DNA from: Halovivax gelatinilyticus
GTDB taxonomy: Archaea > Halobacteriota > Halobacteria > Halobacteriales > Natrialbaceae
Direction: 5' to 3'
DNA: 64,000 bases
Assembly: GCF_024300625.1 (NCBI RefSeq)
Contig: NZ_CP101322.1
Span: 819,992 to 883,991, forward strand
Shown piece after piece: positions 2,711 to 48,154 of the stretch. The translations under genes and the position numbers were made by a program. How positions within the stretch are numbered: the first letter of the stretch is position 1; every line of letters begins with the position of its first letter. The notes beneath the pieces are model-generated. The model made no database searches, was not told where the DNA came from, and saw only the letters and a list, made by a program, of their open reading frames with translations.

Positions 2711-5700
2711 TCAGCCGGCGTCGATCCGCTCGCGCAACCGCCGGACGTCCGGTTCGAATCCGTTCAGACCGTACTCGGAGACCAACGCGGTGACGACGGC
2801 GAGGCGCTCGCGAGCGGCGTCCGGATCGTCCCGGGCCAGGTCGAGTCGACACTGCGCGAGCATCGTCTCACAGCGATCGACGGTCGCCCCACACGTTCGC
2901 TGGATCTCGAACGCGGTCGAGAGTTCCTGTTCGGCCCGTTCGAGGGCTCCGACGTCGACGCACGTCACGCCGAAGATCGATCGGGCGCGGGCGTCGAGCA
3001 GTCGCTCGTCGGTGTTCGCGGCGGCCGTCGCGGCATCGGCGGCGAGTTCGTGGGCCTCGTCTATGGCGCCGGCGTCGCGAACGTCGCAGACGAGTTCGAG
3101 CGTATATCGAGTGACGTCGACGTCGTTCGCCCCGTCTGCCGCGAGTTCCCGAGCCGTTTCGTGGTGGGTTCTCGCGGTTTCTGGCTCGCCGGCGGATCGG
3201 TAGACGCGCCCGAGTGCGTCGTGAGCGGCGGCGATGCGGTCGTCGTTTCCGAGCTCCCGTGCGATCGAAAGTGACCGTTCGGCGTCCGCCCGAGCGCGGT
3301 CGCCGCGTCCGGCGAGTTCGTTAATCCGCGCGCTGGTGGCGTAGGCGAGCGTTTTCCCGTCGACGCCGTCGAGTTCGTCGAACGTGGCGATCGCTTCCCG
3401 ACAGCGCGCATCCGCGAGGTCGAGCCGACCCCGCTTCGCGTGGACCTGCGCGACGTTGACTCGGGCTTTCGCGATGCGCTCTTCCCGACCGATCTGCCGG
3501 CCGGCTTCGATCGCGGCCTCGTACTCCTCGACCGAGCGAGAGAGGTTGCCCTGCGCGCGATAGAGCAACGCCTGGTTGATCAGCGAGTCCGGCATCGTCT
3601 CTTTGAACCCGTGCTCGCGCTGGAGCGAAAGCGCCCGTTCGTTCGCGCAGATCGCCGATTCGAGGTCGCCGCCGTGACGGTAGACGAGCGAGAGGTTCGT
3701 CAGCGACTTCGCGCCGTAGTTGGCTTCCTCGAGGCGTTCGAACGTGGCGGCGGCGTTCGCGAGGCGCGTTTCTGCGCGCTCGAACAATCCGGTCTTCCCG
3801 TCTAACGTCCCGAGATCGTGAGTGGCGAGACCGCAGAGAAGCGGGTCGCGAGCGGCCTCTGCGACGGCGAGTTGTTCCTCGAACGCGGTCCGTGCCCCGT
3901 CGAGGTCGCCCGTCTGTAATAGCCCCCAGCCCCGAACGCGGTAGAGGCGGCAGCGATCGGCCGCGGGGACCCGTTCGGCCACCAGTCGGAGTCCGGCTTC
4001 GACGACGTCGAGCCCGTCCGCGACGGTGCCCTGTTTGATCCGTATCTCCGCCAGGCGGTGGTGAGCGCGGGCGGCGACGGCGGGATCTAACGCACGCTCA
4101 CACGCGAGTTCGAAGTCCCGGCAGGCCAGTTCGGCCTCGCCGCGGACGAACCGCACGGTCCCGAGTTCGAGGCGAAGCGCGGTCGCCCGGTCGGACTCAC
4201 CGAGACGCTCGGCCAGTTCGATCGCCCGCTCGTACGACTCGATGGCAGCCTCGCCGGCGTACGTCGCCCGGGCCCGTTCGGCCGCGCGTTCGTAGTGAGA
4301 GATCGCCCGACTCAGTTGTCCGGCCGCCGCACACTGGTCGGCGATCGTCGACGGCGGTGCGTTCGTCTCGATGAGACTCTCGGCTGCCAGTTCGTGGACG
4401 GTTTGACGGCGGTCGTCGTCGAGTCCGGAGAGGATCGTCTCTCTGACGAGGCCGCTCGCGAATTGGACGGAACCAGTTCCCGGCTCGCCCGTCCAGTCGA
4501 AGAGGCGAGCGTCGACGAGCAGCGCGAGGTAGTCGCGGAGGATCGACTCCGGAAGCGAGACGGCCGAGGCGAGCACGTCGTAGGGAACCGTTCGCCCGAC
4601 GACCGAGGCGATTTCGACGATCTCCACCCCCGTCTCGTCGAGCGATTCGACGCGCCGCTCGACGGCCCGTTCGGGACCGCCCGGCAGGTCGAGCCCCTCG
4701 GTCGTCCGGGGGTACAGACCGCGCCCGGGATCGATCTCGTCGGCGGCGAGCATGCCAGTTACCGCCTCCTCGACGATGAGCGGATTCCCGGCGGTCGACT
4801 CCTGGACGAGGTCGACGAACGCGGAGGGGACGTCTGGATCGTCGACCAGACGGCGGACGAACGCCGCCGTCGTCTCCCAGTCGAACGGCGCGACGTGCAG
4901 TTCGGATACTCGAGTCGACGAGACGAGACGGGATCGAACGGTCGCGAGGGCGCTTCCGTCGTCGATCGGGCGAAACGCGCCGATCAACAAGATCGGATAG
5001 ACCCAGGCTGCACACTCGTCGGCCAGGCGCTCGAACAGCGAGAGCGTCGAGCGGTCCGCCCACTGCAGGTCGTCGACGAACAGGACCGTCGGCTGGGAGG
5101 TCGATCGGTCGCACACCGCCGTCGAGACGTCGCCTAAAAGTGCGCTTCGGCGGGCCGAAAGCGGCACATCTTCGTCGATACCGGCGGCCGACGCGTCGGC
5201 CAACGGATCGAGAACCGCGGCGTCGAACGCGCTCTCGATCGCCCGACGGAGCGGGCCGTAGGGTTCGTCGCTCCCGCGTTGACAGGCCGCTCGACCGATA
5301 ACCATCCCCGAGTCGGACGCGTGGTCGACGAGCCGATCGAGCAGCGCCGACTTACCGACGCCGGCGTCGCCGGTCACCAGTACCGTCCGTCCACCACGCG
5401 CGTCGATCGACTCGAGCGCCTCGACCAGCTCGGACAGTTCCCTGGCGCGGTCGACGAACTGCGCGCCCGGCGCGTGCGATTCGCTCGGACCGATCGACTT
5501 GGTGGCCAGTTTCGCGAGTACCGATCCGAGCGGTGAGTCGGGCTCGGCGTCGGCGACCGCCCACAGCGGTCGATCAGCGTTGACGATCGATTCCCCGTCG
5601 ACGGTTTCGAAGAGCCGTCGCCTGCGGTCTTCGGCCCGCGCGCGGCCCTCGTCGGTCAACGAGTAGACGCTCCGCTCGACACCGTCTTCGGTCGCCCGAA

Positions 5701-47391: not shown

Positions 47392-47580
47392 CTACCGGAT
47401 CGGCCGTTCGCCGTCCTCGCAGAGTTCGAGCATCCCGATCCCGGCGAGACAGTCGAGACAGATGGTGCGCTGGACGTCCCGGAACCGATGGACGACGTCG
47501 CGTCGGTGGGTCGCAGAGAGGCGGACTCGGCCGCCACGACGCGTGCCACCGCAGCGATAGCAGGCCGACCCGTCGGTCAT
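47392..47580 (-). CDS. Small zinc-finger protein
   Basis: A 62-residue protein with two CxxC knuckles, CYRCGGT near residue 7 and CLDCLAG near 41, spaced as in a zinc ribbon, plus one more cysteine near 53. Small zinc-finger proteins of this kind are abundant in haloarchaea and often affect gene expression, but this one is not assigned. The sequence between the knuckles is basic (RRGGRVRLSATHRRDVVHRF), which suits nucleic-acid binding. Confidence 0.7.
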   Translation of the reverse strand: MTDGSACYRCGGTRRGGRVRLSATHRRDVVHRFRDVQRTICLDCLAGIGMLELCEDGERPIR

Positions 47581-47687
47581 CCACCGACCACCCCATCGAT
47601 CGAAGAATCCAAGCTACAGCCGGATCGGAGCTGACGCTGGCGATACCACAGACGTGCGAGAGCTTTTTGTCCCGGTGGTTTGTACGC

Positions 47688-47695
47688 AATTATGG
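47688..47695 (+). promoter_or_regulatory. TATA-like box of the predicted RNA gene
   Basis: AATTATGG lies 22-29 bases before the first base of the closing stem of the predicted RNA. This is the expected spacing for an archaeal TATA box and RNA start. No open reading frame begins at this distance. Confidence 0.5.
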
Positions 47696-47716
47696 CGACT
47701 AAATCCGCTTCGGGTT

Positions 47717-47847
47717 TGGAAGCCACGTCTCGGGTGCACCACCCGGGACATTTCTACGCAGGAGATTGCTCCTGCGGGGTCCAAAAGAGCGGCGCTCTTT
47801 TGAGGACTGCACATGTCCCCGCGTCAGTTGTGTAGCGTGGCTTCCAA
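47717..47847 (+). ncRNA. Predicted multibranched structured RNA (131 nt)
   Basis: The ends form a perfect 12-bp stem (TTGGAAGCCACG at 47717-47728 with CGTGGCTTCCAA at 47836-47847). Inside, four hairpins follow with few unpaired bases: 47729-47737/47741-47749 (9 bp with one G-U), 47757-47764/47769-47776 (8 bp), 47779-47782/47804-47807 plus 4783-type inner stem 47783-47790/47794-47801 (4 and 8 bp), and 47808-47813/47829-47834 (6 bp with one G-U). This is a five-way junction with its own TATA box. It does not look like tRNA, 5S, SRP, RNase P or a box C/D RNA. A foldback mobile element with inverted ends is the alternative. Confidence 0.55.
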
Positions 47848-48154
47848 TTACTGCATAGACATCAGTTAGTATATATCATCTAGTGGCTGTTCGGGAGTGA
47901 GGGGATTTCACAGAATGTTCGACAGTGCTCGATATTCTGACCTGGGCACGGGACCAACCGTCGGGTCGCAAGACCAAGTACGGATAGACCGTTATGGAGC
48001 GGCGAACGCTTCGCCAGGCGCTAGCGTCCGGTGGTTGTCACAGACAGCACACGCTACGTACAGGAAAAGCAGTTATCGGAATGACCACCGATGTCTATTT
48101 TAGAGAGTTAGTCTGAATGAGGCCGAACAAGGGGTACGTCGGTCGGATAGTTTG
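47848..48154. other. Gene-poor, less GC-rich spacer
   Basis: No credible gene is seen between the predicted RNA and the first regulator. There is an A/T-rich TTAGTATATATCATC at about 47866-47880, and TCTATTTTAGAGAG near 48093. The composition differs from the GC-rich blocks on both sides, which suggests acquired DNA. Confidence 0.5.

Follow-up and report, generated by a model that had tools for sequence, protein, structure and literature searches.

A folded element in front of a zinc-finger ORF

The window, i.e., the whole stretch of 64,000 nucleotides analysed here, carries on its minus strand an ORF for a zinc-finger micro-protein, preceded by the remnant of a second short ORF (ORF1), a folded element and a TATA-like box (Table 1). 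The initial annotation had described the element as overlapping no gene; it lies directly 5′ of the zinc-finger ORF. The 12-bp closing stem described there was recovered as a perfect inverted repeat, at 47716-47727 and 47836-47847, that encloses hairpins. Folding gave −74.4 kcal/mol (z −5.0) for the plus strand and −68.8 kcal/mol (z −5.2) for the minus strand, with all of the 200 shuffles being less stable in each case. The folded element is real and folds beyond chance, but it belongs to the other strand (minus) and has another topology than had been proposed.

The five-way junction drawn for it is one near-optimal fold of the window copy, whereas the fold found across the family is a three-way junction of the helices P1, P2 and P3. 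The five-way form appears because the window copy with P2 and P3 forced, at −61.4 kcal/mol, has nearly the energy of its free minimum, at −62.3 kcal/mol. Compared with its relatives, the window copy has ~60 nt extra inside P3, including two additional hairpins, an enlargement missing from most family copies. Its P2 loop has 3 nt, versus 6-7 variable nt in the relatives. With its ORF1 start codon lost, the window copy is probably a derived or decaying member.

L055 (~2766; G001:C1:2320710-2320797) also carries an enlarged P3 with two extra hairpins, of a sequence different from that in the window. In L044 (G000:C1:1571115-1571193), from the window's own genome, the P1 3′ strand is diverged or lost, and this copy is probably a decaying member.

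Table 1 Features of the window copy and its surroundings, in the order of the predicted minus-strand transcript.
Feature	Position in window	Strand	Remarks
TATA-like box, GATATA	47872-47877	−	ends exactly 26 nt before P1 at 47845
Predicted transcription start of the leader	~47845-47848	−	
P1 5′ strand, GGAAGCCACGCU	47834-47845	−	predicted transcript 5′ end
P3 5′ strand, GGGACAU	47813-47819	−	A-U/G-C exchanges in relatives
Enlarged P3 loop of the window copy	47752-47812	−	two extra hairpins, ~47757-47776 and ~47778-47808
P3 3′ strand, AUGUCCC	47745-47751	−	
P2 hairpin, GGGUG-loop-CACCC	47732-47744	−	loop 47737-47739, GUG only
P1 3′ strand, GAGACGUGGCUUCC	47718-47731	−	strand common to both putatively competing helices
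Small hairpin P0, AAACCC-GAAGC-GGAUUU	47701-47717	−	between P1 and the start region
Start-proximal segment and former ORF1 start	47691-47698	−	GCC-AUA here; GAAGCC-AUG in relatives
ORF1 remnant, IIAYKPPGQKALARLWYRQRQ...	47577-47693	−	AUA replaces AUG; stop overlaps the ATG of the zinc-finger ORF
Zinc-finger micro-protein ORF (ORF2), 62 aa, CYRCG...CLDC	47392-47580	−	downstream of the leader

Distribution, shared fold and downstream genes

BLASTN recovered 21 pieces of the element in the window's genome (3.7 Mb, one contig) and, for each of four congeners, 20 or more. A first covariance model, built from 37 sequences, gave 25 copies in the window's genome at E below 1e-4 and 24-34 matches in each of the four congeneric genomes, and also detected more distant members elsewhere in the order, in other families. 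By pattern scan, 104 stretches were found in Natrinema, Natrialba, Halovivax, Halostagnicola, Halopiger, Natronorubrum and related genera. A second covariance model, with the divergent members included, had matches in 17 of 40 Halobacteriales genomes, 16 of them among the 27 good-quality genomes. Across the phylum, 295 sampled genomes were searched with strict filters and few candidates scored per genome, and all matches fell within the order. Twelve pairs of copies occupied the same place in two Halovivax congeners (G002 and G003).

Copies also occurred close together. At L056 two copies lie 1.1 kb apart (2273-2351 and 3416-3494), with nearly identical promoters and flanks and with different loops (CTCTGA vs TGTCAG, plus reading). 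On Haladaptatus plasmids, e.g., NZ_CP085339.1 and NZ_CP085302.1, a query of leader plus SWIM gene matched at up to 30 places per plasmid, and the module or parts of it have therefore been strongly amplified there.

In the family fold, P1 (~13 bp) encloses P3 and P2 in a three-way junction. P3, P2 and the P1 3′ strand follow one another with hardly any unpaired bases, and the P1 5′ strand is separated from P3 by a longer linker. A GAAA-like run is conserved in the P3 loop. Members have diverged in much of P1 and P3, and their pairing can be verified visually. Covariation was assessed on a wider set of 63 sequences, in place of 37 similar ones, for which the count was uninformative because the set had been picked by a fixed pattern. 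Changes on both sides were present in 24 of the 25 pairs, and double-change cells numbered 217, compared with 57.8 in shuffles. The covariation score was 0.356, versus 0.121 for shuffled alignments and at most 0.082 for slid controls, in an alignment that was fitted to the model and leans towards the structure. Like riboswitches, the family has a conserved structure with compensatory changes.

The window element gave nothing at the gathering cut-off of the Rfam covariance models. For the window stretch and 12 further loci, Rfam 15 returned only chance-level matches below the cut-off (E up to 10 for the window). The initial annotation had suggested a new structured RNA, to be checked against Rfam and for compensating changes in homologues; with the strong covariation and no Rfam 15 match, both checks came out in its favour.

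In the sense of the window's minus strand, 94 of the 151 copies, the window copy included, have a TATA-like box ending 26 nt upstream of P1, and 115 have one ending at a distance of 24-27 nt. The predicted energy is lower on the coding-sense strand in 120/151 copies (Wilcoxon p 6e-14). In nearly all diverse loci an ORF begins behind the element, with its start codon ~15-25 nt behind the three-way junction; some members (L332, L326, L340, L333) are followed by no more than a very short ORF. Existing annotations place genes here as well. In Haloarcula plasmid records an annotated CDS, mostly a “SOSS complex subunit B family protein”, has its start at the expected position, and in Haladaptatus records the CDS of a “SWIM zinc finger family protein” starts just behind the match. 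With this spacing between the minus-strand TATA-like box and P1, the RNA of the element would form the start of an mRNA. On comparative grounds the element is very likely an mRNA leader, sharing with riboswitches the 5′ position before protein genes.

At four loci (L173, L184, L192 and L319), a divergent small winged-helix-like ORF (MSRERNRDTGRY... / MSETERDERGRFA...) adjoins the leader, located on the opposite strand, upstream of the TATA-like box.

In the Natrialbaceae, a small zinc-finger ORF follows 97 of the 117 copies on the coding strand, compared with ~2 of the 117 on the other strand. Many of these copies have the short ORF1 (MIxYxLPGYKRPAR...) between leader and zinc-finger ORF. Among 107 distinct ORF1 sequences the start was AUG in 105 and GUG in 2, in a search that required one of the two. 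ORF1 has weak codon periodicity and contains a hairpin, with an A-U/G-C exchange at one pair; in some loci (L047) it forms one frame with the zinc finger. Beyond the Natrialbaceae, the downstream genes encode SWIM, other CxxC and SOSS-B-like proteins, plus a few unrelated ones. Cys/His pairs were found in 17/28 downstream ORFs of the diverse loci, versus 9/92 background ORFs. The tested ORF1 and ORF2 products had only sub-threshold matches in Pfam and NCBIfam. None of the downstream genes examined encodes a ribosomal protein, as would be the case for a ribosomal-protein leader. ORFs with a HELAHVRQQ motif were found near the leader copies L144 and L152, the L144 stretch being partly masked as N.

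A second helix at the start codon and a variable loop

The segment directly 5′ of the AUG is complementary to the 3′ strand of P1. It varies among members, with GAAGCC-AUG, GAAGACC-AUG, GAACCC-AUG, GAAAGACA-AUG and others. In 29 diverse loci, whose start codons were selected by ORF length only, the P1 3′ strand formed 6.24 bp with its own start segment and 4.98 bp with swapped ones, the energies being −9.10 and −6.64 kcal/mol, respectively (0/5000 permutations each). As a control, the P1 5′ strand gave no signal in the same permutation test (p 0.26). Ensemble folding favoured P1 in most members, strongly in many, and favoured the alternative helix in L319 and L325, with a mixture in a few. According to these predictions, the alternative helix may be rarely populated in members with a strongly favoured P1. 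Two mutually exclusive structures, one of them at an expression signal, are a riboswitch trait that the comparison recovers here, with mixed energies.

Because the pairing between the P1 3′ strand and the AUG segment co-varies too, a two-state translational switch can be proposed. On the minus strand, transcription would begin near the first base of P1, and the leader would fold into the three-way junction of P1, P3 and P2. Two helices would compete for the P1 3′ strand. When this strand is paired with the transcript 5′ end, the AUG region would be free, and P1 is the probable open state; when it is paired with the segment immediately 5′ of the AUG, the AUG region would be closed. Haloarchaeal translation often proceeds without Shine-Dalgarno control, so that closure of the AUG region is only an assumed mechanism in the model. 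Some trigger, e.g., a ligand, an ion, a bound protein or an antisense RNA, might shift the balance between the helices, which would set the translation of small zinc-finger, SWIM or SOSS-B-type proteins. Computation shows the structure, strand, promoter spacing, position before genes and covariation of both helices; that the leader switches in the cell, in which direction it controls translation and that a trigger exists are inferred. Judged from sequence comparison, two-state translational switching is moderately probable, and the element is probably a copy of an undescribed Halobacteriales family of cis-acting mRNA leaders acting as such a switch.

The same structure could also act as a stable 5′ cap that does not switch and only protects the mRNA 5′ end or reduces initiation to a constant degree; the start segment would then resemble the P1 5′ strand for some other reason. 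The dominance of P1 in the predicted ensemble of most members agrees with a cap. However, the P1 3′ strand and the start-proximal segment co-vary across lineages, and in L343 and L345 the start helix is more perfect than the outer P1. We consider a stable cap unlikely and retain the two-state leader as the preferred reading.

The P2 stem (GGGUG/CACCC) is kept, with rare compensatory changes, and its 6-7-nt loop is strongly variable. In 16 Haloarcula SOSS-B leaders, the loop had 0.549 and the spacer before the start segment 0.519 differences per site, compared with 0.00-0.03 in the remaining leader and 0.085 in the first 150 coding bases. In four Haloarcula-type genomes the loops differed between copies and the remaining leader was nearly identical, and in strain CBA1115 one loop was common to two plasmids. 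Between the Halovivax orthologues of G002 and G003, the loop changed only slightly faster than its surroundings (0.192 vs 0.146). Identical loops within a genome made up 3 of 1621 pairs in the Natrialbaceae, versus ~11 expected (P 0.0035 and 0.0015), an expectation possibly inflated by shared ancestry between genera. For 22.7% of the distinct loops, the reverse complement was itself a loop, compared with 5.5% in a position-preserving null.

In one orthologue pair of G002 and G003 (L236 and L208), the loops are exact reverse complements, CTAGGTC and GACCTAG, as if the hairpin had been inverted.

Searches for loop pairing within the own RNA or its neighbourhood gave no signal, and the copies of one genome had no reverse-complement pairs that would allow loop-loop kissing. 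Recognition of the loop by the protein product of the same copy is weakened by near-identical proteins with different loops (Natrialba L062, L078, L159; Haloarcula). The data allow two ideas, insulation between copies or a DNA-level inversion process, neither being a settled explanation. As a speculation that we hold to be unlikely, the leaders could be an order-wide class of native two-state RNA regulators of haloarchaea. Each copy would then have an “address” loop of its own that a trans-acting RNA or protein reads, and diversification of the loops, in part through inversion, would insulate the ~25 copies in one cell from each other.

Loop variability would likewise prevent cross-talk between copies in one cell if the locus were a sense-antisense pair, in which a plus-strand counter-transcript binds the leader via the P2 loop, in the manner of CopA/CopT or type I toxin-antitoxin systems. 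Both strands fold, copies of one genome share a loop less often than expected (3 vs ~11), U-turn-like YUNR loops exceed simple shuffles, and a TATA-like stretch is present on the plus strand in Natrialbaceae. Against the position-preserving null, however, YUNR in either strand was only slightly in excess (0.60 vs 0.50, P 0.015), and no TATA-like stretch was seen by eye at the corresponding place in Haloarcula leaders, which leaves such a pair improbable.

The initial annotation had read the locus as a free-standing 130-nt RNA on the plus strand, for which the strong fold and a T-rich stretch upstream on that strand speak. This reading is rejected as highly unlikely: promoter spacing, energy and adjacent ORFs all fit a minus-strand mRNA 5′ leader, the T-run proposed as its own promoter (~47664-47668) overlaps ORF1 codons that are conserved on the minus strand of relatives, and, in place of an own promoter and end with no adjacent coding role, the promoter spacing and the start codon are found on the other strand. 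For a foldback or MITE-like mobile DNA speak the ~25 dispersed copies, the many matching places on Haladaptatus plasmids and a loop inversion in one orthologue pair, but mobile DNA of this kind appears improbable in view of the orthologous positions of the twelve same-place pairs, the lineage-specific compensatory changes, the constant order of promoter, element and start codon, and the lack of matches in the viral collection with the patterns used.

Relation to known systems

The structured mRNA leaders form a class that is real, widespread and as yet unregistered. We found no description of it in the open-access literature; subscription papers were mostly outside this search and may hold one. 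The main text of a survey of candidate structured RNAs does not mention haloarchaea (PMC2864571).

Ribosomal-protein leaders, including the S15 leader of Halobacteria (PMC7247131), are likewise structured archaeal leaders of nucleic-acid-binding proteins. The new family differs from them by its structure, which is unmatched in Rfam, and by its downstream genes, none of those seen encoding a ribosomal protein. ORF2 of the window and many of its relatives are of the general type of the C(P)XCG zinc-finger micro-proteins of haloarchaea (PMC11241148, PMC10716476), although the tested leader-linked proteins have no Pfam or NCBIfam family above the cut-off. In the open-access literature no report of a structured leader for C(P)XCG micro-protein genes was found. 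If the switch model is true, it would provide a common regulatory link for uncharacterised haloarchaeal zinc-finger, SWIM and SOSS-B-like genes.

CopA/CopT antisense loci have a hairpin with a variable recognition loop, a frozen stem and insulation between copies. The leaders would have these three traits in common with them, but an opposite-strand promoter was not seen in all leader lineages. That the loop varies, and is sometimes inverted, on an RNA that is otherwise frozen is a puzzle of its own.

With translational riboswitches, the leader family shares the 5′ leader position, the conserved junction and the alternative helix at the start codon. It differs in having a variable loop and no Rfam class match, and it would cover the start region, not the Shine-Dalgarno site. 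Translation in the Halobacteriales does not strictly depend on a Shine-Dalgarno sequence, and the switching of such mRNAs would become testable via this leader class. In archaea, natural leaders that switch have hardly been described; as of 2021, the only experimentally determined natural archaeal riboswitch was that of Thermococcus kodakarensis for fluoride (PMC8241225). If the proposed switching is true, the leaders would add to it a large class, spread over an order.
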